Source: Methanobacteriota archaeon (GTDB lineage Archaea; Halobacteriota; Methanosarcinia; Methanosarcinales; Methanosarcinaceae). From it: a stretch of 62,028 nt of DNA. The stretch is taken from contig JASGVX010000131.1 in NCBI GenBank assembly GCA_030054735.1, positions 1-62,028 on the forward strand. The letters are read 5' to 3'. How positions within the stretch are numbered: position 1 is the stretch's first letter; each line of letters begins with the position of its first letter. This document shows positions 2,458 through 25,514 of this stretch, piece after piece. Made by a program: the position numbers and the translations under genes. Below the pieces are notes generated by a model. That model saw only the letters and a list, made by a program, of their open reading frames with translations. It was not told the DNA's origin and made no database searches.

Positions 2458-2484
2458 ACCTATAATGAAAACCCCCCAATTCTT

Positions 2485-3459
2485 GTGATGATCATGATAC
2501 TAATCGATGAAATTAAAAAAAGAAGTTCCTACGTTGATGCTGCAATAGAGGAACTGCTTCCGATAACCCGTCCGGAGGAACTGTACAAAGCTTCACGTTA
2601 CTACTTAGATGCCGGTGGAAAACGCCTTCGTCCGGCAGTCCTGATCCTGGCAGCAGAAGCTGTCGGTTCCGATCTCAAATCCGTTTTGCCTGCAGCAGTG
2701 GCTGTGGAGCTTGTGCATAATTTCACCCTGATCCATGACGATATCATGGACAAAGACGAGGTCCGCAGGGGAATGCCTGCAGTTCATGTAATATGGGGTG
2801 AAGCCGGAGCGATTCTTGCTGGTGACACTCTTTATTCAAAAGCCTTTGAAATCCTTTCAAGAGCCGAAAAAGATCCATCAAGGATTTTAAAATGCATGAA
2901 TATCCTCTCAAATGCCTGTACAGAGATTTGCGAAGGGCAGTGGCTTGACATGGATTTCGAAAAATGGGAGAGGGTTACGGAGCCTGAGTATATTGAAATG
3001 GTTGAAAAGAAGACTTCTGTCCTCTATTCTACTGCAGCCAAGATAGGAGCTCTTCTTGGAGGGGCTTCGGATGAAGTTGCTGATGCTTTATTCGAATATG
3101 GGCGCCTTATAGGGATCGGCTTCCAGATGTATGATGACGTCCTTGATATGATAACTCCCGAAGAAGTGCTTGGAAAGGTAAGGGGCAGTGACCTGATGGA
3201 AGGAAAGCGTACCCTCATTGTCATTGATGCTTTCAGGAAAGGCGTGAAACTGGATATCTTTGGAAAAGGGGAAGCAACTATCGAAGAAACCGAAGCGGCC
3301 GTCAGGACTCTTACCGAATGTGGGTCTCTCGATTACGTGAAAAATCTTGCAATCTCATATATCAATGAAGGAAAAGCAAAACTGGATGTACTCAGAGACA
3401 GTCCTGAAAAAACCCTTCTACTACAGATTGCCGACTATATGATCACAAGGAAATACTGA
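2485..3459 (+). CDS. idsA: Geranylgeranyl (polyprenyl) diphosphate synthase
   Basis: A trans-isoprenyl diphosphate synthase of 324 aa that condenses IPP with allylic diphosphates to give the C20 chain of archaeal lipids. The first aspartate-rich motif DDIMD is at about residues 85-89 and the second, DDVLD, at about 217-221. GGKRLRP near residues 44-50 is the conserved IPP-binding region. Chain length cannot be read with certainty, but C20 is usual in this family. The N-terminus is ambiguous: the frame opens with GTG ATG ATC ATG, and the ATG at 2494 is an alternative start; no strong ribosome binding site decides between them. Probably expressed with RNase J upstream. Confidence 0.9.
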   Translation: MMIMILIDEIKKRSSYVDAAIEELLPITRPEELYKASRYYLDAGGKRLRPAVLILAAEAVGSDLKSVLPAAVAVELVHNFTLIHDDIMDKDEVRRGMPAVHVIWGEAGAILAGDTLYSKAFEILSRAEKDPSRILKCMNILSNACTEICEGQWLDMDFEKWERVTEPEYIEMVEKKTSVLYSTAAKIGALLGGASDEVADALFEYGRLIGIGFQMYDDVLDMITPEEVLGKVRGSDLMEGKRTLIVIDAFRKGVKLDIFGKGEATIEETEAAVRTLTECGSLDYVKNLAISYINEGKAKLDVLRDSPEKTLLLQIADYMITRKY

Positions 3460-3703
3460 AGGTGAGCTCTGGCTCATCCATTTTTTAATTATTTGAGGTT
3501 TAATTTTTGTTTCCAACTTTTCTTTTGATCAAGACATATCACTCTGTAAGCAATTGATCAATACCATTTTGATAAGCAGTTGACGAAAAAATAAAATAAA
3601 TCGAGTTTTTCAAAGTTCCAGACCTGATGGGTAGATCCGCTACGCTCCGGGAAATAACTGTTCAAAAAAGAATGCTGAAGGCAGGATTTGGTCCTGCCAT
3701 AAT

Positions 3704-6367
3704 TTAATTATTTATTTTTTTTGCGTTTTTCATTTCTATTGTGCTCTGCGCAGCTACAAGTCTTGCAATCGGGACTCTGTAAGGTGAGCAGCTCACATAA
3801 TCAATGCCAATCTCATGAGCGAAGGCGATGGATCTCGGATCTCCTCCGTGTTCTCCGCAGATTCCCATCTTAAGTTTGGGTTTGGCAGAGCGGCCTTTTT
3901 GTATACCGATCTTCATGATCTCGCCTACACCTTCCTGGTCAAGGACTGCAAAGGGGTCGTGCTCAATTATGCCTGCCTTCAGATAGATAGGCACGAATTT
4001 GGACACGTCGTCCCTGCTGAACCCGAAAGCTGTCTGGGTCAGGTCATTAGTCCCAAAGGAGAAGAAATCAGCTTCCTTTGCGATCTGGTCTGCAACGATT
4101 GCGGCTCTGGGCAGTTCAATCATGGTACCAACTTTGTAGTCTATCTTCATGCCTTTTTCAGCCATTACCGCATCTGCAGTCTTGCAGACTTCCTCTCTGG
4201 TGAGGGAGAACTCTTTTAGAATGCCAACGAGTGGAATCATGATTTCAGGAACAACCTTATGTCCTTCGGCAGTAAGCTCACAGGCTGCCTCCATGATTGC
4301 ACGTACCTGCATATTATATATTTCAGGGTAGGTAATTCCAAGCCTGCAGCCTCTGTGCCCCAGCATTGGGTTAAGCTCCTTAAGGGAAACTACGCGCTTG
4401 ATAACTTTTTTTACATCTTCAATCTTTCCGCTGTCTCCCAACGCTTCAAGTTCCCTGAGTTTTGCATCAAGTTCTTCCTTGTCCGGAAGGAACTCGTGCA
4501 GAGGCGGGTCAAGGAGCCTTATGGTTACAGGCAAGCCTTCCATGCTGCAGAAGATGCCAAGGAAGTCATCTTTCTGCATTGGGAGCAGTTTCTTGAGGGC
4601 TTCCTTCCTCGACTTCTCGTCTTCGGCCATGATCATTTCCCGGACTGCAGGGATCCTGTCTTCGCCGAAGAACATGTGCTCTGTCCTGCAAAGCCCGATA
4701 CCTTCTGCACCCAGTTCGCGAGCAATGGAAGCATCTTTGGGGGTGTCGGCGTTTGTCCTTACTCCGAGAGTCCTTATATCATCAGCCCAGCCAAGGAGCT
4801 TTTTCAGGTCATCGTCTATTTTGGAATCGATAAGGTCTGCTTTCCCTAGAATGACGCTTCCTGCACTTCCATCAATCGTGATGTAGTCGTGCTCTTTAAT
4901 GGTGTAGCCGTTTACAATAAAGTGGCCATTCTTCATATCGATTGAGATTTCTCCGCACCCAACGACACAGGGCTTACCCATACCTCGACCTACGACTGCA
5001 GCATGAGAGGTCATCCCTCCGCGCACGGTAAGAACTCCCTGTGCAGCTGCCATTCCTCCTATATCTTCAGGGGAGGTCTCGGTACGGACAAGAATTGTTT
5101 TTTCGCCCTTCTCTGCCATCTCTTCAGCAGCTTCGGCAGTAAAGACTACCTTTCCAACAGCGGCTCCTGGAGATGCGGGAAGACCATTTGCAATTACTTC
5201 AAGCTTTGCTTTCGGGTCAATCCTCGGGTGAAGGAGCAGGTCAATGTGTTCCGCCGTAACCCTGTTTACAGCAGTTTCTTTGTCTATAAGTCCTTCTGCT
5301 ACCATATCAGTTGCGAGTTTCACTGCTGCAGCTGCTGTACGCTTTCCAGTTCTGGTCTGCAGCATGTAGAGTTTTCCTTCCTGGATAGTAAACTCTATGT
5401 CCTGCATGTCCCTGAAGTGGGCTTCAAGCTTCTGGCAGATATCCACAAGCTGGGCATAGGCTTCAGGGATCTTGTTCCCGAGCGTATCAATAAAGTCCGG
5501 GGTCCTTATCCCTGCGACCACATCTTCGCCCTGAGCATTGATGAGATATTCTCCAAAAAACTTCTTTTCGCCTGTGGACGGGTTTCTGGTGAAAGCAACA
5601 CCTGTACCTGAGGTGTTTCCTCTGTTCCCGTATACCATTGTTTGCACATTGACGGCTGTGCCCAAGCTGTCATCAATATTGTTAAGCTTCCTGTAGGTAA
5701 TGGCTCTATGATTATTCCATGAATCAAAAACAGCATCTATCGCCAAACGAAGCTGAACTTTAGGGTCCTGAGGAAATTCGAATCCCTTTTCGAATTTGAT
5801 TAGTTCTTTAAATCTTTCTGCCAATTCTTTTAATGCTTTTGAATCGAGGTCAGTGTCGGACTTAACCCCAAGTTCCTTTTTCTTGTCCTCAATTAAGGAA
5901 TCGAATTCTCTGAAGTCAATCCCAAGCACCACGTCCCCAAACATGGAGATAAATCTTCGGTAACAGTCGTAGGCGAATCTTTCATCATTGACTTTGTTTG
6001 AGAGCCCAATTACGGATTTGTCCGTAAGCCCCAGGTTAAGAACCGTGTCCATCATTCCCGGCATGGACACCTTGGCACCAGACCTTACAGAAACCAGCAA
6101 TGGGTCTTCGGGATCTCCCAGTTTTTTGCCGTTTAATTTTTCTAATTTATCAATTGCCTGTTCTACCTGTCTGAGCACTTCTTCTGGATATTTATTACCC
6201 TTAAGATAAAGAACACAGACTTCAGTCGTTATTGTAAAACCTGGGGGTACTGGAATTCCGAGGTTTGCCATTTCGGCAAGGCCTGTGCCCTTACCTCCAA
6301 GCAAGTTATTCATACTACCTGTGCCATCAGTTACATCCTTTCCAAAAAAATATACAAATTTGGACAA
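3704..6367 (-). CDS. ppdK: Pyruvate, phosphate dikinase
   Basis: Interconverts pyruvate, ATP and phosphate with PEP, AMP and PPi. In methanogens it probably feeds gluconeogenesis from pyruvate. The N-terminal ATP-grasp domain, the central swivelling phosphohistidine domain with GGMTSHAA (catalytic His about residue 455) and the C-terminal PEP/pyruvate barrel with the conserved CGEHGG cysteine (about 837) are all present. The 887-aa length is normal. I chose the TTG at 6367 because GGAGGAG lies directly upstream; an in-frame ATG at 6394 would add nine residues before that site. The gene is monocistronic, divergent from gar1, and a dispersed hairpin repeat lies in the shared upstream region. 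Confidence 0.95.
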   Translation of the reverse strand: MSKFVYFFGKDVTDGTGSMNNLLGGKGTGLAEMANLGIPVPPGFTITTEVCVLYLKGNKYPEEVLRQVEQAIDKLEKLNGKKLGDPEDPLLVSVRSGAKVSMPGMMDTVLNLGLTDKSVIGLSNKVNDERFAYDCYRRFISMFGDVVLGIDFREFDSLIEDKKKELGVKSDTDLDSKALKELAERFKELIKFEKGFEFPQDPKVQLRLAIDAVFDSWNNHRAITYRKLNNIDDSLGTAVNVQTMVYGNRGNTSGTGVAFTRNPSTGEKKFFGEYLINAQGEDVVAGIRTPDFIDTLGNKIPEAYAQLVDICQKLEAHFRDMQDIEFTIQEGKLYMLQTRTGKRTAAAAVKLATDMVAEGLIDKETAVNRVTAEHIDLLLHPRIDPKAKLEVIANGLPASPGAAVGKVVFTAEAAEEMAEKGEKTILVRTETSPEDIGGMAAAQGVLTVRGGMTSHAAVVGRGMGKPCVVGCGEISIDMKNGHFIVNGYTIKEHDYITIDGSAGSVILGKADLIDSKIDDDLKKLLGWADDIRTLGVRTNADTPKDASIARELGAEGIGLCRTEHMFFGEDRIPAVREMIMAEDEKSRKEALKKLLPMQKDDFLGIFCSMEGLPVTIRLLDPPLHEFLPDKEELDAKLRELEALGDSGKIEDVKKVIKRVVSLKELNPMLGHRGCRLGITYPEIYNMQVRAIMEAACELTAEGHKVVPEIMIPLVGILKEFSLTREEVCKTADAVMAEKGMKIDYKVGTMIELPRAAIVADQIAKEADFFSFGTNDLTQTAFGFSRDDVSKFVPIYLKAGIIEHDPFAVLDQEGVGEIMKIGIQKGRSAKPKLKMGICGEHGGDPRSIAFAHEIGIDYVSCSPYRVPIARLVAAQSTIEMKNAKKINN

Positions 6368-6394
6368 TGATTCTCCTCCCTGGAACGAGATCAT

Positions 6395-6770
6395 TAATCA
6401 GAGTTATAGTTGGATATTCCCAGACATAAGTCTGGTTGTTGCCAACAATACCATTTTAATATATAAGCTTGTTTCTTTGATTTAGCATGAAAGTGCTTTC
6501 CAGCACTTTCATTTCTTTGTGCCTGTTATTCGAAGAATATGCGTTTCATATCATACTCTTCGAAATTATTTGTTATGTACAGTATGTAATATTATATAAT
6601 ATATGTCTTGCGAATTCAATGTATAATATAGGTCTTGCGATATCTTTATATATCATGAATGTAGACTAAATATGCTTTTCAGTCTAGAATCTAAACCTTA
6701 TTTAAGACTGACAGTAAAAACCACTCGAAGCCAGGGTATTTTTGCCCTGAGTATAGAGGCATAACTATTC
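6395..6770. other. Divergent ppdK / gar1 intergenic region
   Basis: This AT-rich spacer carries dispersed repeat R1 (6484-6551) and the promoters of the divergent ppdK and gar1 genes. The sequence ATATTATATAATATATG (about 6588-6604) is TATA-like. The small plus-strand frame here is mostly repeat sequence and is not called as a gene. Confidence 0.5.
6484..6551 (+). repeat. Dispersed hairpin repeat R1, copy 1
   Basis: The copy begins AGCATGAAAGTGC and forms a perfect 8-bp hairpin, GAAAGTGC / GCACTTTC, at 6489-6510. It is followed by a T-rich run, then GTGCCTGTTATTCGAAGAAT. Four further full copies (20369, 25038, 49477, 59141) share this order, all on the plus strand. This copy diverges in its last 15 bases. 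Confidence 0.85.
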
Positions 6771-7040
6771 GTGGCTGATATGAAACGACTAGGTACCGTG
6801 CTGCACAGATCAGGTGTTAGAAACCTGATAATTAGAGGGGACGAGATAAAAACCAATAACGCCTCAGGTAGTCTTCCAAAGTTGAATTCGGTTGTTGTTG
6901 ACAAATCTTTGAACCGGATTGGTACTATTGCCAGTGTCTTTGGACCTGTGAACCATCCATATTTTTTAGTGAAGGGCTTTAAGCGAATTCCTGATTCAGA
7001 AACTCGGGCTCTTATCAATGAAAAAGTCTATATTCGGTGA
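6771..7040 (+). CDS. gar1: H/ACA RNP protein Gar1
   Basis: An 89-aa archaeal Gar1, a core protein of H/ACA ribonucleoproteins that guide rRNA pseudouridylation with Cbf5, Nop10 and L7Ae. The sequence has the small beta-barrel pattern of the family, including GTIASVFGPVNHPYF, a conserved region. Start GTG at 6771, with GAGG about 12 bases upstream; an internal ATG at 6780 is the alternative. It lies 183 bases before tfb on the same strand, a gene pair commonly seen in archaea. Confidence 0.88.
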   Translation: MADMKRLGTVLHRSGVRNLIIRGDEIKTNNASGSLPKLNSVVVDKSLNRIGTIASVFGPVNHPYFLVKGFKRIPDSETRALINEKVYIR

Positions 7041-7223
7041 GATCTCTGACATTCGATGAAGACTTTAATCATTTGCTATGGTTAGATTTTAACTGATTTA
7101 TAAGTTTTTCGCTTGTCATAACTGAGATTTTTCTTCGTCCTTCTTTTATATATTTTATTATGGTGCAGGCTTGAGAAATTCAGGGAAAACATATGGTCAT
7201 GTTAATTTGTAAGGTGATATAAT

Positions 7224-8237
7224 ATGGTAGAAGTCGAAAGAGTTCGCTATTCGGACACTCTTGAAAGGGAAAAAATACGTGCCCTGATTAAAGCTCGCAA
7301 AGAAAAACAAAAGGAGCAAAGCTTTGAGAAAGAAAAGGCCGTGTGTCCAGAATGCGATAGCAGGAACCTAGTCCACGACTATGAGAGAGCAGAGCTCGTG
7401 TGCGGGGACTGTGGACTTGTCATTGACGCCGACTTTGTGGATGAAGGACCGGAATGGCGAGCTTTCGATCACGATCAGCGCATGAAGCGTTCCCGTGTGG
7501 GTGCGCCCATGACATATACAATCCACGACAAAGGGCTTTCCACAATGATTGACTGGAGGAACCGCGACTCCTACGGAAAGTCTATCTCCTCCAAAAACCG
7601 TGCTCAACTCTATCGTTTAAGAAAATGGCAGCGTAGAATTCGTGTAAGTAACGCAACTGAAAGGAACCTGGCTTTTGCCCTGTCCGAACTGGATAGAATG
7701 GCTTCTGCTCTTGGTCTTCCAAGAACTGTCAGGGAAACTGCAGCAGTCGTCTACAGAAAAGCTGTGGACAAGAACCTTATCCGTGGCCGCAGTATTGAAG
7801 GTGTAGCCGCAGCTGCCCTATATGCAGCCTGCCGCCAGTGTAGTGTCCCTAGGACTCTTGATGAGATAGAAGAGGTTTCCCGGGTAAGCAGGAAAGAAAT
7901 CGGCAGGACTTACCGCTTCATTTCCAGAGAACTTGCCTTAAAGCTAATGCCTACCTCCCCTATCGACTATGTCCCGAGGTTCTGCTCAGGACTTAATCTG
8001 AAAGGAGAAGTCCAGTCAAAAAGCGTTGAGATCCTCAGACAGGCCGCAGAAAAAGAACTCACAAGCGGAAGAGGGCCCACAGGAGTTGCCGCGGCTGCAA
8101 TTTACATTGCATCCATTCTCTGCGGAGAACGCAGGACTCAGCGGGAAGTGGCAGATGTTGCAGGGGTAACAGAAGTTACAATCAGGAACAGGTATAAAGA
8201 GCTTGCAGAAGAACTGGATATTGAGATTATTCTCTAA
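7224..8237 (+). CDS. tfb: Transcription initiation factor IIB (TFB)
   Basis: A 337-aa general transcription factor that binds TBP and the BRE next to the TATA box and recruits RNA polymerase. The N-terminal zinc ribbon has cysteines at 41, 44, 60 and 63 (CPEC and CGDC). A B-finger/linker region follows, then two cyclin-like repeats (about 130-225 and 230-325). The C-terminal repeat holds a helix-turn-helix ([20 protein letters not shown]). Full length with no unusual residues. The ATG is preceded by AAGGTGATAT. Confidence 0.97.
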
Positions 8238-8593
8238 ACCTGTCTTCTTTTTTACTCGGCCAGCCTGATTGAAGGTTCTTCAGATTGGTGGAGGGTTTAA
8301 GTGTGCCCTCTTTTCCTTCCCTTCTCTTTAGAACTGTCCTTCTTAGCTGTGCTAATATACTATTTCCAAAAGTTTATTCTTTTTAAAAATATAGTTTTTA
8401 TAAAAGCCACATAGATCTCTAAAATCAAGATTTATTAGGACTTACGCACTTGAAATGTAAAATCAGACACATGCGGTCTTGTCAACATTATTTGAGTTTA
8501 TACAGATAAGTCACTTCCGCTCGTGTTTTTCAATTAAACTGTGTAAGTCCTATTTATAAAAACTATATAAATTTGTAGCAACTCAAGATTATA
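8238..8593. other. tfb - lysE intergenic region with MITE-like element
   Basis: Apart from the element at 8437-8552 no gene or RNA is seen. The first 200 bases after tfb are pyrimidine-rich and contain T-runs that may act in termination. Confidence 0.5.
8437..8552. mobile_element. MITE-like element R6, copy 1 (116 bp)
   Basis: Ends are inverted repeats: AGGACTTACGCA at the left and TGTGTAAGTCCT at the right. The interior has no coding capacity. An inverted second copy lies at 61330-61444, sharing the internal TTATTTGAGTTTATA and CACTTCCGCTCGTG words. It was probably moved by a transposase encoded elsewhere. Confidence 0.8.
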
Positions 8594-9247
8594 ATGCTGA
8601 CAATTGAGATCTTCAGAGCCCTTCTCCTGGGCTTCACTATCGGGCTTACAGGTGCCCTGGTCCCAGGACCTATGCTTTTTGCAACCATAGAACTTTCTCT
8701 CAAAAGAGGCTGGTTTGCAGGCCCAGAAGTTGTCTTCGGGCATATACTTGTCGAGCTTGTAATTGCTATGCTTATTCTCTTTGGAGCTGCTTCTCTTGTC
8801 AGTAGCGGGATAATCTCAGCTATTTCCATTATTGGCGGGTTTTCACTGGCGGTATTCGGGCTGCTTACTGTAAAGGGCGCAAAAGCTGCTGTTTCGTCAG
8901 GAGCTTCTCGGGAAGCATCAGACCCAAAATTGACTTCAAATCCAACAGCATTGGGCCTTATAACCTCAGTTTCAAATCCTTACTTCTGGATCTGGTGGCT
9001 GACTGCAGGCAGCGCGCTTGTGTTGAAGGAACATGAACTGGGAATTCTTATTTCAGTTGCCTTTATCCTCGGGCACTGGGCGGCAGACCTTAGCTGGTTT
9101 ACTGCTGTATCCGTGTCTTTTAGCCGGGGAAAAGCCCTTCTCTCGCTACGAACTCATAAAATGATCCTTTATGCCTGCGGAGCGTTTTTAGTGATTTTCG
9201 GGCTTTATTTTATGCTCAGTTATAATAATCCCATCCAGTTGTCATGA
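8594..9247 (+). CDS. LysE-family membrane transporter
   Basis: A 217-aa integral membrane protein with about six predicted hydrophobic segments and the family-typical GALVPGPM motif in the first segment (about residues 19-26). LysE/RhtB relatives export amino acids or related small molecules; the substrate here cannot be read from sequence. SNPYFWIWW near residue 132 is a conserved family element. Monocistronic by context, with a MITE-like element just upstream that may place its promoter in foreign sequence. Confidence 0.8.
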   Translation: MLTIEIFRALLLGFTIGLTGALVPGPMLFATIELSLKRGWFAGPEVVFGHILVELVIAMLILFGAASLVSSGIISAISIIGGFSLAVFGLLTVKGAKAAVSSGASREASDPKLTSNPTALGLITSVSNPYFWIWWLTAGSALVLKEHELGILISVAFILGHWAADLSWFTAVSVSFSRGKALLSLRTHKMILYACGAFLVIFGLYFMLSYNNPIQLS

Positions 9248-9305
9248 AGAAAGACCTTTGTTTTTCTGAGGGTCTCTCTTCTACTGTTTTCTTTGATTTT
9301 CTTCT

Positions 9306-9500
9306 TCAGGACAACTTCCCGATAAGGATGAGATAGATTAATAGCCCTCTACTGAAGGTAAGCAAGCATAAAATTAGCTGTATTCTCATATTTTTCCGGG
9401 TTTTCCAGCTCCATCTGTTTATAAAGAAAACAAATCCAGGGACCAGGGCTATGGCTCCAAAAAAACCGTGGATATATATATAGTAGATCGCTAAAATTTT
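9306..9500 (-). pseudogene. Small two-helix membrane protein relic
   Basis: A frame of about 60 codons reads HGFFGAIALVPGFVFF followed by a basic turn (RWSWKTRKNMR) and a second helix, ending in TGA at 9306-9308. GGTGGAGG lies upstream but no ATG, GTG or TTG sits at the right distance, only ATT/TTA codons. It looks like a small membrane-protein gene that lost its start, or a fragment of a larger multi-helix protein. No function assigned. Confidence 0.4.
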
Positions 9501-9628
9501 TCCTCCACCTTTAGTCTAGCTCCATAATCTCAGACACCATACTGCTGTCCTGACCCTCAACTTTCTTCTTAGCCATTCCCCAATTAGAAGTATAAACATT
9601 TCAAATCTGAACTTATCTTCATTATAGG

Positions 9629-9677
9629 TATCGGAAAACATCGTTTAAGGAAAAGTAAAAAATTAGTGAACTACTGA
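9629..9677. repeat. Repeat R4, copy 1 (49 bp)
   Basis: Begins TATCGGAAAACATCG and ends GTGAACTACTGA. It is identical over 49 bases to 37079-37127. Such identity between two distant intergenic sites suggests a recent duplication or a remnant of a mobile element end. It sits 20 bases before a fragment of repeat R2. Confidence 0.85.
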
Positions 9678-9697
9678 TTAACAGGTGATTTAGAAAG

Positions 9698-9729
9698 AAC
9701 CTTATGCGCTTAAAAAGGCGGAAGTTAGG
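9698..9729. repeat. Truncated copy of MITE R2
   Basis: The words CCTTATGCGCTTAAAAAGGC and GGAAGTTAGG match the right end of the copy at 38775-38933. The rest of the element is absent. Confidence 0.75.
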
Positions 9730-10022
9730 TTTAAGCTATAAAATAACTTGACCAAAATATATTTTTTGTAAAAGTATTCCCAAAAATAATAGCTTCAGAA
9801 TTTTAACACTGATCAATGAATGGAAAAAATTGTACATTATAGGGATAAGAAAGAATCAAAAGACTTTTGTCACTCGAAAGTACCTTTAATCGGAACTATT
9901 ATAGTGCACATAATCTTTATGTACTAGAAATGTTATTCAAATCATACCAATCCGACTAATCGCTTGATCTTTAATTTACTGCCCCAAGCTACGGCAGTAA
10001 TAGCGATGTTCGAACGCGATAG

Positions 10023-10890
<868 letters not shown>

Positions 10891-10897
10891 AGGGTGA

Positions 10898-11308
<411 letters not shown>

Positions 11309-11316
11309 GGAAAGTT

Positions 11317-11876
<560 letters not shown>

Positions 11877-11948
11877 AAAACGTATTTGGGATACTTTCAG
11901 ATGCTGAATGAATTTTATTGTTGATTCTATATATTATGAGGTGACTTT

Positions 11949-12689
11949 ATGGAGGAAATTGAGCAGACAGGGCAGGAGGAAGCCGGAGCACAGCCTATGC
12001 CTGAAGAAAATGTCGTGGCTGAAGCAAAACCTGCACCTGAAAAGGAAGCCGCAGAAAAGACCGGATCTCTACCTGTAGCTGAGGACGAAGCACCCTCCGC
12101 GAAAGAGGGGTCCACATCCCTTGTATCCATTGATGAATACCTGGCTGCAGGTGTTCACATTGGAACCCAGCAGAAGACTCAAAATATGATGCGCTTCGTA
12201 TACAGAGTCAGGACTGATGGATTATACGTTCTTGATATCCAGTCAACAGACGAAAGGATCAGAGCTGCATCAAAACTGCTTTCTAACTATGATACTTCCA
12301 GAATCCTTGTAGTCTCTTCAAGGCAGTATGGACAGCACCCTGCAAGAATGTTCTCAAGGGCGCTGAGTACAAAGTCAATGCTTGGAAGGTTTATTCCAGG
12401 TTCCCTTACAAACCCTCAGATCCACGGGTTCTTTGAGCCGGATGTTATAGTTGTAACAGACCCGGCTGGGGATGCCCAGGTACTGAAGGAAGCTTCAAGC
12501 ATTGGGATACCTATTGTAGCACTCTGTGACACAAACAACCTGACAACAAATGTGGACCTTGTAATCCCAACCAACAACAAGGGTAGAAAAGCTCTGTCTC
12601 TTATCTACTGGCTGCTTGCAAGGGAAGTTTCCAGACTCAATAACACCCACTTCAATTACGAGCTGACCGATTTCGAAACTCCGCTCTAA
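11949..12689 (+). CDS. rps2: Ribosomal protein S2 with acidic N-terminal extension
   Basis: Small-subunit protein of 246 aa. The core starts near residue 60 ([16 protein letters not shown]). Before it lies an Ala/Glu/Pro-rich, low-complexity segment of about 55 residues that is probably disordered. The ATG has GAGGTGAC upstream, so the extension is likely translated. The C-terminus is normal ([11 protein letters not shown]). Followed by memo 73 bases later. Confidence 0.94.
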
Positions 12690-12762
12690 TCCAAGGATAT
12701 CCGTCCTGCATACTGCAAGGGTTTATAAAATTGCCCATATCTTATATTATAGGTGATTGGAA

Positions 12763-13560
12763 ATGAGACAACCAGCAGTTGCAGGGCATTTCTATCCCCT
12801 GCATAGTGAATATCTGGAGAAAGAACTTAAACGATGTTTTGAAGGACTGGAAATCCGGGAGAGGGAAGTACTGGGGGCAGTTTGCCCGCACGCCGGATAT
12901 ATGTATTCCGGGAAAGTAGCTGCACACGTTTATGCAACTCTCCCTGAAGCTGATACCTATGTCCTTTTAGGGCCCAACCATACAGGGTACGGCTCACCAG
13001 TATCATTATCCAAGGAAACATGGAAAACACCCCTTGGGAATCTTGATGTTGACCTCGAACTTGCCGATGGATTTCTCGGGAGCATCGTTGATGCAGACGA
13101 ACTCGGGCACAGGTACGAGCATTCTATTGAAGTCCAGCTTCCTTTTCTTCAGTACCGCTTTAATCAAAACTTTAAAATTCTTCCTATCTGTATGGGCATG
13201 CAGGATGAAGAAACTGCAGTTGAGATAGGAAACCTTGTTGCTGACCTTATTTCCGAAAGCGGAAAACGTGTGCTTATCATAGCATCCAGTGATTTTACTC
13301 ATTATGAGACTGCCGAGCGTGCAAAGGAAATAGATTCCGAGGTAATAGATGCTGTCCTGAATTTTGATATCCCATCCATCTACGACCGGCTTAATAGAAG
13401 AAATGCTACGGTTTGCGGGTACGGGCCCATTGCAGCAATGCTTTCGGCTTCTCAAAAGCTTGGGGGGTCAAGAGCCACTCTGCTTAAATACGCAAACAGT
13501 GGGGATCTTAGCGGAGATATGGACGCGGTTGTCGGGTACGCTGCAATTATTGTGGAATAA
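12763..13560 (+). CDS. Memo-family (AmmeMemoRadiSam MEMO1) protein
   Basis: A 265-aa member of the Memo family, related in fold to extradiol dioxygenases, of unsettled function. Family landmarks: MRQPAVAGHFYP at the start, CPHAGYMYSG (about 43-52), LLGPNHTG and SSDFTHYE. Start ATG 12763, six bases after AGGTGA; a TTG at 12757 would touch that site. It is the gene before mevalonate kinase in this block, a neighbourhood often seen in euryarchaea. Confidence 0.9.
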   Translation: MRQPAVAGHFYPLHSEYLEKELKRCFEGLEIREREVLGAVCPHAGYMYSGKVAAHVYATLPEADTYVLLGPNHTGYGSPVSLSKETWKTPLGNLDVDLELADGFLGSIVDADELGHRYEHSIEVQLPFLQYRFNQNFKILPICMGMQDEETAVEIGNLVADLISESGKRVLIIASSDFTHYETAERAKEIDSEVIDAVLNFDIPSIYDRLNRRNATVCGYGPIAAMLSASQKLGGSRATLLKYANSGDLSGDMDAVVGYAAIIVE

Positions 13561-13758
13561 CTTTGAGCTAACAGACAAATTCTAAAAAGATATCAGGAAA
13601 AGTTTTTTTAATTGTTCTGAAAAATGCCTGGAGTAATGCCGGAACAGGGATAGGTTTTTTTATACTATTTTTACTTTACTCTTAATACTTATAAGGGTAA
13701 AGTTAATTACTCAAGATACTTAAATTCAGCAAAAATTGAAAAACTGTTGAGGAATAAT

Positions 13759-14664
13759 ATGGTTTCATGTTCTGCTCCCGGGAAAATCTATCTTTTTGGA
13801 GAACATGCGGTTGTTTACGGAGAAAACGCAATAGCATGTGCAGTTGATTTGAGAACCAGGGTGCGGGCGGAGTTAAACGACTCCATAGTTATCCAGTCGC
13901 AGATTGGCAGAACAGGCCTTGATTTTGAAAAACACCCCTATGTTTCTTCAGCGATTGAGAAAATGAGGAATTTTGCCCCTATAAAAGGTATTTTTTTAAA
14001 CGTTGACTCGGACATCCCTGTAAGTTCTGGGCTCGGTTCATCTGCTGCAGTTACGATTGCAAGTATAGGAGCCCTCAATGAACTGTTTGGATGCGGTCTG
14101 TCTCTGGAAGAGATTGCAAAACTGGGGCATGAGATTGAGATAAATGTGCAGGGTGCAGCAAGCCCTACAGACACTTATGTTTCTACTTTCGGAGGGGTTG
14201 TTACCATTCCGGAACGGAGAAAATTGAAGGTTCCTGACTGCGGAATTGTCATAGGAGATACAGGGGTTTTTTCGTCTACAAAAGAGCTTGTGTCAAATGT
14301 CAGGCAGCTTCGCGAGAGTTACCCTGAACTTATCGAGCCTCTCATGGCTTCCATTGGCAAAATCTCGAAAATAGGAGAAGACCTTGTGATTTCCGGAGAT
14401 TACGCCTCCATTGGCAGGCTTATGAACGTGAACCAGGGTCTGCTTGACGCAATTGGGGTGAACATCCTTGAGCTATCACAGCTGATCTATTCTGCAAGAG
14501 CAGCAGGAGCTTTCGGGGCAAAGATTACAGGGGCCGGAGGCGGTGGTTGTATGGTTGCGTTAACTGCGGCACAGAAATGCACCCGGGTTGCTGAAGCCAT
14601 TGCAAGAGCAGGAGGAAAAGTGACAATCACAAAACCCACTGAACAGGGGCTAAAAGTCGACTGA
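13759..14664 (+). CDS. mvk: Mevalonate kinase
   Basis: GHMP kinase of 301 aa, phosphorylating mevalonate with ATP. SAPGKIYLFGEH (about 5-16) is the substrate loop, PVSSGLGSSAA (about 87-97) the ATP loop and TGAGGGGCMVAL the third GHMP motif. ATG 13759 follows GAGGA by five bases; the frame's earlier TTG overlaps that site and is not used. First of three genes for the archaeal mevalonate pathway. Confidence 0.95.
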   Translation: MVSCSAPGKIYLFGEHAVVYGENAIACAVDLRTRVRAELNDSIVIQSQIGRTGLDFEKHPYVSSAIEKMRNFAPIKGIFLNVDSDIPVSSGLGSSAAVTIASIGALNELFGCGLSLEEIAKLGHEIEINVQGAASPTDTYVSTFGGVVTIPERRKLKVPDCGIVIGDTGVFSSTKELVSNVRQLRESYPELIEPLMASIGKISKIGEDLVISGDYASIGRLMNVNQGLLDAIGVNILELSQLIYSARAAGAFGAKITGAGGGGCMVALTAAQKCTRVAEAIARAGGKVTITKPTEQGLKVD

Positions 14665-14794
14665 TCCAGGGTGCTTCAGAGAGTTTTCCTGTAAATAAAA
14701 TCATTTTTTGTCTCATCTTTTTGTTACGATTGCTGTAATATTATGATACCTTACTCTCATTGAAAATTATTCGAAAAATGTATTAAGTGATATT

Positions 14795-15577
14795 ATGAAC
14801 GCTTCAACCGAACCTGTTATCTTAAAACTCGGAGGTAGCGCCATTACTGATAAAGGCGCAAATGAAGGGGTCGTAAAAGAGGCTGCCCTTCTCAGGATTG
14901 CGCGAGAAGTTTCAGGCTTCAAGGGAAAAATGATTATCGTACACGGAGCCGGGTCTTTCGGGCATACCTACGCTAAAAAATACGGGCTCGACAGGACATT
15001 TGACCCGGAAGGGGCAATTGTAACCCATGAATCCGTAAAGAAACTGGCTTCAAAGGTAGTGGGTGCTCTGAACAGCTTTGGAGTCAGAGCTATTGCTGTG
15101 CACCCTATGGTCTGTACGGTCTGCAGGAATGGGAGAATAGAGAGCATCTACCTTGACAGCATAAAACTCATGCTCGAAAAAGGATTTGTCCCTGTCCTGC
15201 ACGGAGATGTTGCTATGGATCTCGAACTCGGGACCTGCATCCTTTCCGGAGACCAGATTCTTCCTTATCTGGCAAAGGAACTGAGAATTACCAGGCTCGG
15301 GCTGGGATCGGCTGAGGACGGTGTTCTCGATGAATATGGAAAACCCGTACCTGAGATCACTCCTGAGAACTTTGAAGAATTCAGGCACTGTATAGGAGGT
15401 TCAGGAAGTACCGATGTTACAGGAGGAATGCTCGGGAAGGTTCTGGAACTTCTTGAACTTAGCAAAAATTCTAGTATCACCTCCTATATATTTAATGCAG
15501 GAAAAGCGGATAATATTCACAGGTTCTTAAATGGAGAATCCATAGGGACCAGAATAAGTCCGGATAAAAGGGTATGA
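14795..15577 (+). CDS. ipk: Isopentenyl phosphate kinase
   Basis: Amino-acid-kinase fold, 260 aa, converting isopentenyl phosphate to IPP in the archaeal mevalonate route. KLGGSAITDK (11-20) binds phosphate. GAGSFGH (51-57) holds the His that distinguishes this family from fosfomycin and glutamate kinases. HGDVAMD and SGDQILPYLA are further conserved blocks. IPP isomerase begins 4 bases after the stop. Confidence 0.95.
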   Translation: MNASTEPVILKLGGSAITDKGANEGVVKEAALLRIAREVSGFKGKMIIVHGAGSFGHTYAKKYGLDRTFDPEGAIVTHESVKKLASKVVGALNSFGVRAIAVHPMVCTVCRNGRIESIYLDSIKLMLEKGFVPVLHGDVAMDLELGTCILSGDQILPYLAKELRITRLGLGSAEDGVLDEYGKPVPEITPENFEEFRHCIGGSGSTDVTGGMLGKVLELLELSKNSSITSYIFNAGKADNIHRFLNGESIGTRISPDKRV

Positions 15578-15580
15578 AGC

Positions 15581-16675
15581 ATGATCAATATTACCTCCAG
15601 GCGAAAGATCGAACACCTGAAGCTCTGCGCTGAAAGCCCGGTTGAGTCCAGGAAGGTCAGGGCAGGATTTGAAGACGTAACCCTGATTCACAGGGCGCTT
15701 CCGGAATTAGACATGGATGAGCTGGATCTTTCTGTGGATTTCCTTGGAAAGCGCATTAAAGCTCCGTTTTTAATTGCATCGATTACAGGAGGTCACCCTG
15801 ATACTATTCCTGTAAATGCTGCACTTGCAGCCGCAGCCGAAGAAATGGGAATAGGAATTGGAGTAGGAAGCCAGAGAGCTGCAATTGATGACCCGGCTCA
15901 GATAGATTCTTTCAGAATTGTCAGGGATGAGGCTCCGAATGCCTTTGTCTATGGAAACGTTGGTGCTGCCCAGATCCGACAGTACGGGGTTGAAGGGATA
16001 GGAAAACTCATTGAAATGATCGATGCAGACGCCCTTGCCATTCACCTTAATTTCCTGCAGGAAGCCATACAGCCCGAAGGGGACAGGGATGCTACAGGCT
16101 GCCTGGATATGATAACTGAAATATGCTCTGAGATCAAAACCCCGGTGATCGTGAAAGAAACAGGGGCAGGCATTTCCAGGGAAGATGCTCTTCTTTTGCA
16201 GAAAGCCGGAATCTCTGCAATTGATGTCGGAGGTGTTGGGGGCACGAGCTGGGCTGGAGTTGAGGTCTACAGGGCAAAAGAAAGCGGAGATTTGGTATCT
16301 GAGCGTCTTGGAGAACTTTTCTGGGATTTCGGAATTCCGACTGTTGCCAGCCTGATCGAATCAAGGGTTTCTCTTCCTATTATCGCAACTGGCGGGATAA
16401 GAAACGGGCTTGATATTGCAAAATCCCTTGCTCTAGGGGCCAGCGCGGCAAGTGCAGCCCTGCCTTTTGTAGGGCCTTCTCTTGAAGGCAAGGAAGCGGT
16501 TGTTAATGTCCTCTCCTCTATGATTGAAGAATTCAAAGCTGCAATGTTTCTCTGCGGCTGTGCAGATATCCATGACCTGCATAATGCACCAGTTGTTATC
16601 ACCGGATGGACACGTGAATACCTTGAACAGCGCGGTTTTAATATAAAAGACCTTTCTTTGCCTAAGGAATGGTGA
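15581..16675 (+). CDS. fni: Type 2 isopentenyl-diphosphate isomerase
   Basis: FMN- and NAD(P)H-dependent enzyme of 364 aa interconverting IPP and DMAPP. SRRKIEHLKLC at the N-terminus, ASITGGHP, GSQRAA and ATGGIRNG mark the flavin TIM barrel. The last codons and the TGA stop lie inside a repeat (R3, 16663-16787) that has a second copy at 25398, so the original C-terminus may have been replaced by a few residues. Third gene of mvk-ipk-fni. RNase J and GGPP synthase, the usual next genes, are absent here. Confidence 0.93.
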   Translation: MINITSRRKIEHLKLCAESPVESRKVRAGFEDVTLIHRALPELDMDELDLSVDFLGKRIKAPFLIASITGGHPDTIPVNAALAAAAEEMGIGIGVGSQRAAIDDPAQIDSFRIVRDEAPNAFVYGNVGAAQIRQYGVEGIGKLIEMIDADALAIHLNFLQEAIQPEGDRDATGCLDMITEICSEIKTPVIVKETGAGISREDALLLQKAGISAIDVGGVGGTSWAGVEVYRAKESGDLVSERLGELFWDFGIPTVASLIESRVSLPIIATGGIRNGLDIAKSLALGASAASAALPFVGPSLEGKEAVVNVLSSMIEEFKAAMFLCGCADIHDLHNAPVVITGWTREYLEQRGFNIKDLSLPKEW

Positions 16676-16787
16676 AAATTTAATTTCAAACACTTATACC
16701 CCATATTGTCATTAATGATATTTGGAAGTGCAATAATAGAGTTATTAGCAAAGTGAAAACTTGAAGTCATATTTCGACTATTCCTAA
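16663..16787. mobile_element. MITE-like element R3, copy 1, at the fni 3' end
   Basis: The element begins TAAGGAATGGTGAAAATT inside the last codons of fni and ends GACTATTCCTAA. The reverse complement of the right end, TTAGGAATAGTC, matches the left end imperfectly, so the element has terminal inverted repeats. Copy 2 at 25398-25514 is about 85-90% alike by eye. This element appears to provide the stop codon of fni. Confidence 0.8.
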
Positions 16788-16887
16788 GAATACTCTTTAA
16801 TTAAAGGAAAGGAATGAAAATGCATATTCCTTCCTTTATTTCACATACTTGGATAACCCACAACAGATTTATTCGATCATAATTAAT

Positions 16888-17118
16888 TGAGCCTTTCCCA
16901 ATTTGGCTATCAATGCTTTAAAATTAAATTAAACGCATTTAATTCTCTTTTTTTTAAAAAATTACTTTTAGTTGCTCATATATTCATCTTTCTAAAAGCT
17001 CCTGGTGTTCAGATCATGTCATGTCTTCCAACTTTAAAAGCCGGCAGTGCCGTAAGTAACGCAGCAATATTGCTTATCGATACATATATTTTATACCATT
17101 CCCTCCCTCTTGTCGTTG
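16888..17118. repeat. Long inverted repeat R8, copy 1
   Basis: Reads as the reverse complement of about 49838-50041 with scattered substitutions and small gaps. Shared words include CTCCTGGTG, CATGTCTTCCAACT and CAATATTGCTTATCGATA. The copy at 49.9 kb can be read as a short Cys-rich peptide that is interrupted here, so R8 may derive from the 5' part of a gene. Confidence 0.75.
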
Positions 17119-17282
17119 TTTTTGATCTGTTGTATCCAACTACATCATTTGAGTTTTTTCTTTCAACAGTGGTTCTTATATTGTACAATTTAGTTGTCAA
17201 TGCCGGTGAACAATTCCTCATTTTAGCCGGATTAAAATTCCCCAATTTCCAATCCTTGAAAAAAGTTCGAGGATCGTAAATA

Positions 17283-17568
17283 ATGTTGACAATGGAGGAA
17301 TGGCTATTGATGCGAGACTTGTATTCACAAGGCTTTTGCATCAGTTAAGTCTCCATACAAACAGGTTTTGACAGAGAAACTGTGAGGAAATATCTTCAGC
17401 TGAAAACCTTGCATGAACCTTAGAAACGTCCTGGAAGAAAGAGCAAGCTTGATCCTTTCAAACTTTACATCCTTGAAAAACTCAAAGAAGGTCACTATAA
17501 TGCTATTCACCTCTATCGTCAAATATATCAAATGGAAAGTTACAGGCTGAAAGAAAGGAAAAAACAGG
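17283..17568 (+). pseudogene. IS21-family IstA transposase relic
   Basis: A single plus-strand frame from ATG 17283 reads like the N-terminal 90 residues of IstA: MLTMEEWLLMRDLYSQGF, then TGFDRETVRKYLQLK and SKLDPFKLYILEKLKEG. It is interrupted by TAA after residue 21 and TAG after about residue 46. The integrase core and IstB are missing. Clearly dead, but the frame is intact, so decay is by point mutation rather than indels. Confidence 0.8.
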
Positions 17569-17653
17569 GTATAAAAACGGTAAATATCTATCAGTAATGA
17601 TGGAGTTCTATTATCAAAAAATCTAAGGAAAAAGGACTTTCCCTTTTTGGGTT

Positions 17654-17682
17654 TGTTATTCAAAGAATATCATGTACGTTTT
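17654..17682 (+). repeat. Fragment of repeat R1
   Basis: TTGTTATTCAAAGAATATCATGTACGTTTTTT resembles the 3' third of R1; the hairpin part is missing. Confidence 0.55.
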
Positions 17683-18069
17683 TTATTAATTCTGTTTGGA
17701 GTTCAATTATCCCTTCTTTTGGTAAAATCTCAGTTAAACTTCAAGCTAAAAAACAAGAGTCTGGAATCTAATGACCTGAATAATTTTGATTGTTGTCTAA
17801 AATTTTTTTACTATGAATATTGATAAAAACCATCTATAATGTAAAAAATCTACCTGGAAAAAAAGCTTTTAATCTTTTTTTAGGGATTTTGAGATTCTTT
17901 CACTAGATTGTTATATTAATAAATCTACCATAAACTATCTAAATAATATTAGTGTAATGAGATAACTATTTATAATAAGTATAAGTTCTTTCTAATAAAG
18001 TAAAAGCACAATAATCTAAAGCACAAAATAACTTTAAAAAGAAAACAGCTTTACAGCGGGGGCAAAAAG

Positions 18070-18477
18070 ATGAGAATAAGAGTGGTTAGTTCAAGAGAAG
18101 AAATCTTTACACTTAATCCTAATGAGCGTATTGTTCATATGGCTTTCAGGCCTTCTAACAAAGACATCTTTGGCCTGATTGAAACGTGTCCGAAGATTGA
18201 GCTTATTCAGTTACCCAAATCTTATATTCGCACGGTCTCAAAGTCCATAGAGATCTTCCTTCAGATGCAGAGGGTTCAGCTCCTCGAAGGAGATGTGTGG
18301 GGACACAGGAAAGATATTGACGAATATTATAATATTCCATTCTCAGTAATTGAAAAAATTAAGGAAATGAAGACCGAAGGCAAAAGCACAGAAGAGATTG
18401 AGAAAACAGTTTCAAGGAAAAACAAACTTAACTCTGAAATGGTTGCTTATATCCTGGGCAAGGAAAATTTTTCCTGA
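18070..18477 (+). CDS. DUF1699 family protein
   Basis: A 135-aa soluble protein of DUF1699, a family known mainly from Methanosarcinales and of unknown function. MRIRVVSSREE at the N-terminus and EGDVWGHRKDIDEYY (about 77-91) are its strongest blocks. The C-terminal third is helical and charged. A close paralogue is at 27575-27985 and a decayed copy at 27101-27240. Preceded by GCGGGGGC, a usable ribosome binding site. Isolated between AT-rich spacers. Confidence 0.85.
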   Translation: MRIRVVSSREEIFTLNPNERIVHMAFRPSNKDIFGLIETCPKIELIQLPKSYIRTVSKSIEIFLQMQRVQLLEGDVWGHRKDIDEYYNIPFSVIEKIKEMKTEGKSTEEIEKTVSRKNKLNSEMVAYILGKENFS

Positions 18478-18704
18478 TTCCAGGGCCATGCTTTTAAGGA
18501 CAGCTGGAGATTGGATCGATCTCATTGCTTCTACAGCACTTTTATCTAATCTCCAGTTTAATTTTTTCAATTTAATGGAATTTTGATGTATTGATCCAGG
18601 CATACTCCTGATTTTTTTTCCTTTTTTCTCTTTAGAATGTAATATATCAGGACTGCACCGTCACTTTCCCTAAGCTTAAATATCTTAAGTGTAATCTTCT
18701 CAGC

Positions 18705-19724
18705 GTGATTTCTAAAAAACTAATTGACCTTGGAGTGCTTGCTCTCAGGCAGCGTAACTCGCGAGGTACTTTCAAACCCCACATCTCAATTCGTTTCAGG
18801 GATGATTCAGGAGATTTACGTACCTTTTCTATCGATACTACCAGGGCTCTGGGAAAACAACCCCAGCCCGATGCTTATCTTATCACCCATGCTCATTCCG
18901 ACCATAATGGAAAATCTGCTATGCTCTCACCCAGGGCTGTTTGTACAGAAAAAACAGCACTAGCTCTTGAAATCAGGCATGATAAAAAATATATGGGCAG
19001 CACGTGCAGTCTCGGAGATGATATCGACATCGAAGGGGTCAGGGTAAAGACTTATCCTACGGAACACACCGCCGGAGCGGCTTCTTTTTATTGGGAAAAC
19101 GATGTAGGGACACGAATTCTGGTCACGGGGGACGTTAAAGACGCCAGCAAACTTCCTCCCTGTGACGTCCTTATCACCGAGGCTAACTACGGAGACCCTG
19201 AGGACCCTTCCTGTCATTTTGCAGATGACCTTGACAGCATGAAATGCGCCCTTTTTGAGAGCGGCCCTCTAGCCTTTGGGGCGTATGAATTTGGAAAAGC
19301 CCAGCGTGCAGTTGAATTAATGAGAGTTTTTGGGTACAATGGTGCAATTAGGATGGATGCAAGGACAAGGGCACTTACCCGGAGCATGCTAGAGGACGCG
19401 GGAGAACTTGCAGGCCTTGATTCTGGAGGAGAAGATGATGTTTTCGTTGTGGCCCCCTGGGACCTTAACAAGCTTCCCGGGAATGTGAAAAAATACGTGC
19501 TTAGTTGCCGGGCAGATTATCCCTATCCAACTATTAAAATAAGCGATCACCTTGACGCTTGCGGGCTTGAGGCCATGGTCAGAAAACTTGACCCTGAAGT
19601 TACGCTTGTTTATCACCCCGGAGGGCAGAGACCTTCAAAATTTTCAAAACATTTAAATTCAATAGGGATTGATTCGATATCCATAGATCAGATCACTAAT
19701 GTTTTAAGTAATGAGTATATTTAA
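18705..19724 (+). CDS. Metallo-beta-lactamase fold exonuclease-like protein
   Basis: A 339-aa protein with the zinc motif THAHSDH (61-67) and later metal ligands in TEHTAGAASF and GDVKD. The layout resembles archaeal MBL proteins related to mRNA 3'-end processing nucleases, but the C-terminal half (PWDLNKLPGN, HPGGQRPSKFS) is too unlike RNase J to name a substrate. Start GTG 18705; no strong ribosome binding site is seen. Probably a hydrolase acting on nucleic acid. Confidence 0.75.
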   Translation: MISKKLIDLGVLALRQRNSRGTFKPHISIRFRDDSGDLRTFSIDTTRALGKQPQPDAYLITHAHSDHNGKSAMLSPRAVCTEKTALALEIRHDKKYMGSTCSLGDDIDIEGVRVKTYPTEHTAGAASFYWENDVGTRILVTGDVKDASKLPPCDVLITEANYGDPEDPSCHFADDLDSMKCALFESGPLAFGAYEFGKAQRAVELMRVFGYNGAIRMDARTRALTRSMLEDAGELAGLDSGGEDDVFVVAPWDLNKLPGNVKKYVLSCRADYPYPTIKISDHLDACGLEAMVRKLDPEVTLVYHPGGQRPSKFSKHLNSIGIDSISIDQITNVLSNEYI

Positions 19725-19865
19725 ATGCTGAAATTCAGCCCTAATATTTAAAATATAAAAATTTAGATAGGATGATTCAAATCTGATAATCAAGTTTTAA
19801 ATTTTTAGCTTCAGTTAACATTATATTCCCGGGAAAGATAATTGTCATTCAGGAGAGAATAGAGG

Positions 19866-20279
19866 TTGAGTAAACAATCCCCAAAGTCAAAGCCCAGAAA
19901 GGAGTCCGCAAAAATTACAGAGGCTTCCGTAGAAAGTACTGCAGTAAACGTTGAGGTTCCTGAAAAAAAGAGCTTTATCAAGCAAATGACCCCTGAAGAG
20001 AAGCAGAAAGCTTACAGGGAAGGCATTATAAAAACAATTGTTTCTGCAATACTTGGAATACTTGCCGGGTTCATAATGTTCAAGCAGTACGGTGCAGGCG
20101 AAGACAGGATCTGGTACGTTATATTCGTAATCGTTATCGGGATAACATATTACGCCCAGAAGCTTATTTATATCCCGCTTAAAATAGACACCAGGGAATT
20201 CAAGTTTAAAGACTGGTTTTATGTCGAGTTTATAGTTATCGACTTCTTCCTTGTGACATGGACTCTGCTCCTGAATTAA
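19866..20279 (+). CDS. EMC6-like membrane protein
   Basis: A 137-aa protein: about 55 hydrophilic residues, then three hydrophobic helices (about 60-76, 83-99 and 117-135). It resembles archaeal proteins described as EMC6-like, which may pair with Get1/EMC3/YidC-type insertases for membrane protein insertion. That role is inferred from the family. Start TTG 19866, after AGAGG. Confidence 0.65.
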   Translation: MSKQSPKSKPRKESAKITEASVESTAVNVEVPEKKSFIKQMTPEEKQKAYREGIIKTIVSAILGILAGFIMFKQYGAGEDRIWYVIFVIVIGITYYAQKLIYIPLKIDTREFKFKDWFYVEFIVIDFFLVTWTLLLN

Positions 20280-20368
20280 TAATTCTTTTCCCAGGATTCA
20301 AAAAAGGCTTTTTCTAAAAGGATAGCCTTTTTATCCGGGTCTTTTCCCGCTGGTTTTTACCTTTATTT

Positions 20369-20436
20369 AGCATGAAAGTGCTTTCAGGTGCTTTCATTTT
20401 TTGTGCCTGTTATTTGAAGAATTTCATATGCGTTTT
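20369..20436 (+). repeat. Dispersed hairpin repeat R1, copy 2
   Basis: AGCATGAAAGTGC, then a weakened stem (GAAAG/CTTTC with mismatches), a T-run and TTTCATATGCGTTTTA. Lies 90 bases after the EMC6-like gene. Confidence 0.8.
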
Positions 20437-20643
20437 ATTAATTCTCCTTTCCACTATGATATTTTATTCCTCTAGCATTCCAACGGTTCATATACCAGAG
20501 CGGGCATTTCATGCTAACAACTGAAACATACAAAAATAATGCTTATAATATGAGCTCAAGCAACTGAGCGCGCATATTAAACTCACGCCACTGGATCCAT
20601 TTATACTTTAAGCAATCAAAAAACGTAATTTCCGGGGACCAAT

Positions 20644-24797: not shown

Positions 24798-25037
24798 CCT
24801 ATTCATTATAGTCGTTGATCTTTTGATCTCACAATTTTATTTTTTAATTCTTTGTGGCTCTGAATAAAATGTTTTGTCTATTCCAGAACCCGGATAGAGA
24901 ATTTTTCGTTTCTTCTTCCTGGCAGGGCCGGCTGTTAGTTAGACCAAAATTAATAGATTCAAAGAACACGAAGATTGACCCTATAATAAATAAAAAGAAG
25001 TTAAAAATGGGTGCTTTGACATTGTTTTAATTCATTT

Positions 25038-25107
25038 AGCATGAAAGTGCTTTCCAGCACTTTCATTTCTTTGTGCCTGTTATTCGAAGAATTTCATATG
25101 CTTTTTA
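25038..25107 (+). repeat. Dispersed hairpin repeat R1, copy 3
   Basis: The perfect GAAAGTGC/GCACTTTC hairpin, T-rich run, GTGCCTGTTATTCGAAGAAT and TTTCATATGCTTTTT. Almost identical to copy 1 in its first 55 bases. It lies 11 bases before MITE R2. Confidence 0.85.
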
Positions 25108-25118
25108 TTTCAATAGTA

Positions 25119-25397: not shown

Positions 25398-25514
25398 TAA
25401 GGAATGGTAAAAATTTAATTTCAAAGACTTATTATCATTAATGATATTGGGAAGTGCAATTATAGAGCCATTAGCAAAGTGAAAAACTTGAAGTCATATT
25501 TCAACTATTCCTAA
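25398..25514. mobile_element. MITE-like element R3, copy 2
   Basis: Begins TAAGGAATGGTAAAAATT and ends CAACTATTCCTAA. Slightly shorter than copy 1, which overlaps the fni 3' end. No gene lies here, so this copy helps to define the ends of the element. Confidence 0.8.

Follow-up and report, generated by a model that had tools for sequence, protein, structure and literature searches.

Precedents for MITEs reaching into the very end of functional genes come from Coxiella burnetii, where the overlap of QMITE1 and QMITE2 with functional genes (ruvB, recN, ogt and others) extends from a few terminal bases to a few terminal codons; the length of the proteins is little changed and all the affected functional genes are struck at their 3' ends (PMC5896051). 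Direct repeats of 7-9 bp were reported for QMITE2 (PMC5896051). The in-frame extreme is that of the Rickettsia palindromic elements, which are inserted in frame within ORFs and translated through (reviewed in PMC10969869). Here we describe a MITE at the 3' end of fni in a Methanosarcina genome. Like the Coxiella QMITEs, it overlaps the last codons of its gene and leaves the protein length nearly the same, but it is unrelated to them in sequence, its host is an archaeon, its probable parent is ISAzo13-like and its target duplication consists of 3 bp, TNA. Like the Rickettsia elements it is a small repeat that alters a host protein; unlike them it terminates the ORF after two codons. In the open-licence literature, we found no paper on an ISAzo13-derived Methanosarcina MITE.

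The stretch of DNA analysed (hereafter the window, 62,028 nucleotides) is contig C131 of a genome of 2.88 Mb (149 contigs, 99.4% complete), assigned to Methanosarcina by the named relatives of its fni, a gene present in a single copy. The features of the locus, and the second MITE copy of the window, are as follows:

15581-16675, + strand: fni, encoding a type 2 isopentenyl-diphosphate isomerase of 364 aa with the end LPKEW-stop (TIGR02151, 432 bits; C-termini of 110 loci)
16663-16665, + strand: left target-site duplication TAA (ancestral fni sequence)
16666-16784, + strand: MITE core in fni, 119 bp, with 5 differences relative to the consensus of the family
16666-16689, + strand: left terminal inverted repeat of this copy, holding the new fni codons GAA TGG and the stop TGA (16673-16675)
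16703-16760 (approximate span), + strand: transposase remnant, ISAzo13-family C-terminus and stop (family consensus IVINDIGKCNYRAISKVKT, then stop), from alignment with IS 3' ends
16761-16784, + strand: right terminal inverted repeat of this copy (end-pattern search)
16785-16787, + strand: right target-site duplication TAA (flank comparison)
16788-16800, + strand: displaced ancestral fni end, (AA)G AAT ACT CTT TAA, which reads K-N-T-L-stop once the element is removed
16802-16838, + strand: predicted fni 3'UTR hairpin (fold z = -3.45; sequence homologous to the 3'UTR of relatives)
25398-25514, + strand: second MITE copy, made up of TAA, a 111-bp core (25401-25511) and TAA, intergenic, before hisD

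We examined how the end of fni is built. In CC-TAA, the TAA forms the left duplication; the fni frame runs on through it as AAG GAA TGG TGA, and the element opens with GGAATGGTGA. Of these codons, only the AA of AAG comes from the target duplication; the remaining bases (G, GAA, TGG and TGA) are element sequence. This confirms the proposal of the initial annotation that the final two codons of fni, and its stop, come from a MITE. Directly 3' of the right duplication the sequence is GAATACTCTTTAATTAAAGG. When the flanks are joined with one TAA, they read CCT AAG AAT ACT CTT TAA, that is P-K-N-T-L-stop, then the ancestral 3'UTR, and this joined sequence gives a gap-free alignment with the coding end of relatives that lack the element, these being used for the comparison rather than a second genome of the same species. 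The protein, formerly of 365 aa and ending ...PKNTL, now has 364 aa and ends ...PKEW, and the ancestral end was moved 122 bp downstream.

From these data we propose that a non-autonomous MITE, produced by internal deletion of an ISAzo13-family IS of about 1.3 kb, almost certainly inserted into the end of fni, that the old end is still intact, and that the change of neighbour is a separate matter. As the joined flanks and the duplications across the family show, the element transposed into CC-TAA-GAATAC near the end of the gene, duplicating the 3-bp target TAA. Because its start reads ..G GAA TGG TGA in the fni frame, translation now finishes with K-E-W-stop instead of K-N-T-L-stop, and the ancestral codons, stop and 3'UTR are kept just downstream as untranslated sequence.

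Among the 110 fni loci compared, the element and the KEW-stop end are each found at the window's locus only (KEW-stop in 0 of the 109 others), and no orthologue ended in LPKEW without the repeat. The fni genes of the nearest relatives end with LPKNAL, LPGNAL or LPKNTL and have a comparable AT-rich 3'UTR behind them, and more widely the final residues vary (PKNAL, AGDAF, SREIL). The match to the family model stops at residue 341, and the alignment of solved isomerases reaches no further than residues 356-359. As judged from these alignments, the KEW-stop end is element-derived and lies beyond the conserved enzyme core. Since the C-terminal residues vary and the conserved sequence stops at 341-359, a neutral change is expected; the enzyme should be unaffected, conservation stopping near residue 356.

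The effect on the mRNA was considered by folding predictions. The sense strand of the MITE folds at -25.4 kcal/mol (z = -2.8 against shuffles) with the fni stop codon within the stem, so that the fni mRNA would gain a stem-loop of 119 nt, with the new stop codon in the 5' side of its stem, followed by a second hairpin, in the ancestral 3'UTR. It could be imagined that this stem-loop alters mRNA stability, termination or translation and that the insertion was selected as adaptive. The strand does fold better than shuffled sequences with the stop codon in the stem, and the fni copy is the sole one found in a conserved gene, but any inverted-repeat element folds likewise, one insertion in one genome carries no signature of selection, and the last residues vary so freely among orthologues that neutrality suffices. 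We therefore regard an adaptive insertion as very improbable. We hold the same low opinion of a broader idea, in which the MITE would serve as a portable 3' end, closing all three frames within about 17 codons and bringing a stem-loop, so that insertions at gene ends would be tolerated and the 3' processing of the host mRNA altered.

According to the initial annotation, the element had replaced the original 3' end of fni, and the original downstream neighbour was missing. In favour of such a loss, the end of fni is indeed made of element sequence and rnj is no longer the next gene. However, AAT ACT CTT TAA and the 3'UTR follow the right target duplication directly and are intact: BLAST homology to the relative G009 runs past the MITE to about 16888, and this remnant (16788-16888), comprising the last codons, the stop and some 100 bp of the 3'UTR, contradicts replacement. 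As for the neighbour, the claim is correct insofar as rnj no longer lies 3' of fni, but the gene was not lost, being located elsewhere in the window, and the breakpoint lies beyond the MITE. A replacement of the fni end, deleted together with its neighbour, is thus extremely unlikely. The relevant features are the following:

1114-2457, + strand: rnj (RNase J), located 3' of fni in relatives
2485-3459, + strand: prenyl diphosphate synthase, part of the block that follows fni in relatives
3704-6394, - strand: pyruvate phosphate dikinase, part of the same block
16889-17680, no strand: gene-order breakpoint interval, between the end of fni-3'UTR homology (near 16888) and the start of DUF1699-locus homology (near 17681)

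In four relatives (G007, G009, G024 and G001), the genes 3' of fni are rnj, those for prenyl diphosphate synthase and pyruvate phosphate dikinase, and that for TFIIB. In the window this block is found at 1114-8237, before rpsB-mvk-ipk-fni, and downstream of fni there are DUF1699 and a gene of the metallo-beta-lactamase fold, the latter being far from fni in relatives. Gene order at 1114-16888 and 17681-20300 is unlike that of the four relatives. The MITE was considered as the cause of the change and rejected: the breakpoint lies about 100-890 bp past it, and since ancestral sequence continues for about 100 bp beyond the element, we infer that the rearrangement is an event separate from the MITE insertion. 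Our own reading of the translation, rather than a family match, gives broken transposase-like pieces for 16889-17680. Conceivably, the change of gene order is an assembly join.

The initial annotation was right in describing the repeat at 16663-16787 as a MITE that recurs without a gene, as the copy at 25401-25511 does, and whose terminal inverted repeats are imperfect. Its coordinates are exactly those of TAA, the 119-bp core and TAA, and its recurrence is far beyond chance. A repeat search in the window's own genome gave 91 candidates, with 40 copies scored and E values down to 6e-56 excluding the query itself. With at most 3 mismatches, 67 left ends and 65 right ends were counted in this genome, versus 0 for reversed control patterns, and at least 62 distinct copies were extracted with both ends. 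The core of the family is GGAAT..ATTCC, most commonly 119 bp long, and its terminal inverted repeats, of about 24 bp, are GGAATGGTGAAAATTTAATTTCAA and GGAATAGTTGAAATATGACTTCAA. The 119-bp core contains stops in all frames and no transposase gene, and it falls under the MITE size limit of about 600 bp; together with the terminal inverted repeats, a target-site duplication of fixed length and the many dispersed copies, these are the characters of a MITE. The second copy of the window has a 9-bp internal deletion, and the two are 91-97% alike across ungapped blocks. That this second copy (25398-25514) would be a duplicate of the fni tail and not a mobile element is virtually impossible: AAGGAATGG is common to both, but at least 62 copies have defined ends and target duplications, no orthologue has KEW, and fni homology stops at the border of the element.

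We then analysed the flanks of the 62 copies, which are T-N-A on either side (TAA/TAA in 27, TTA/TTA in 19, others mixed). The 3-bp duplication is exact in 46 of them, when 26.5 would be expected with the right flanks shuffled, and not one of 20000 such shuffles reached 46. No fourth shared base was detected in the 62 copies. This excess of exact flanks and the lack of a fourth base indicate that the MITE makes a 3-bp TNA duplication, which is established statistically since the TNA flanks are unequal in 16 of the 62 copies.

ORFs open over at least 90 codons adjoin just 3 of the 62 copies: fni, an ORF at locus L231 and a 97-codon ORF; among the three, fni alone was shown to have orthologues. 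The remaining copies look intergenic, a placement that fits selection against insertions in genes. At L231 (G000:C3, 1098-2082), a 177-aa ORF lies between MITE ends and its stop is supplied by the adjoining MITE. This 985-bp unit was considered and discarded, the DNA_binding_1 match of its ORF being weak (23.5 bits for a cut-off of 27) and not that of a transposase; within the genus the ORF is without relatives. Two other loci, L120 and L122, show near-matches to MITE ends next to fni; these lack a partner end and differ at 5 of 20 bases, and we attribute them to chance. At L271 (G000:C47), near 1469-1708, two MITE copies in the same orientation are about 240 bp or less apart. Another dispersed hairpin repeat (ATGAAAGTGCTTTCAGGTGCTTTCAT) occurs in the window at 17643-17685, 20362-20439 and 25031-25109. 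Elsewhere, several MITE copies stop right at TTAGCATGAA; this sequence is like the start of the hairpin repeat and suggests nested insertions. An Rfam scan of the window returned tRNA only. The MITE family is most abundant in genome G000, and a diverged form of it in G012.

We finally compared the MITE with IS of Methanosarcina genomes. These genomes contain IS of about 1.32 kb with similar ends (GGAA..TTCC) and TNA duplications, TTA/TTA for the full-length copy at L325 and TAA/TAA for those at L305 and L338. They encode an ISAzo13-family transposase (PF07592) of about 400 aa, and some genomes have it as an intact frame of 405-414 codons; the MITE, by contrast, is 119 bp long and non-coding. 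A target duplication of 3 bp is typical of the ISAzo13 family. Positions 40-119 of the MITE, its right 80 bp or so, match the 3' ends of the IS with the transposase C-terminus in frame, so that this part still encodes that C-terminus and its stop (NDIGKCNYRAISKVKT, then stop); the consensus of the MITE is IVINDIGKCNYRAISKVKT before the stop where the IS read IVFNDYLGKWNYRAIPEVKT. The left end of the IS at L338, GGAATGACAAAAATATAAATTCAA, resembles the left repeat of the MITE over a short similarity. Given the match to IS 3' ends, C-terminus of the transposase included, the MITE appears to be an internal-deletion derivative, and an ISAzo13-family IS is the probable parent of this Methanosarcina family, its exact parent having not been found among the Methanosarcina IS compared. 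In its own genome we detected no intact ISAzo13 transposase but only fragments with stops, which makes present mobility of the MITE doubtful. IS copies can drop out at contig breaks.

IS66 was rejected as a parent: in G000:C20 (L232) half of the MITE is fused to an IS66 transposase fragment, but the matches in other genomes start at about residue 20, past the MITE-derived part, so that the junction is a chance one. At this locus (330-919), an ATG in the right half of the MITE opens a frame of 191 aa. IS66-type transposases across Methanosarcina (L275, L279, L281 and others) have one in-frame TAG in an otherwise long open frame, possibly a pyrrolysine codon.

General understanding is left unchanged by the fni insertion, which is a clean but ordinary transposon insertion. 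For annotation, it gives this Methanosarcina MITE family a probable parent, an ISAzo13-family IS, and a defined target, TNA. It also offers a readable case in which a transposable element has rewritten the C-terminus encoded by a gene central to lipid biosynthesis, with no apparent damage and with the ancestral end still alongside.
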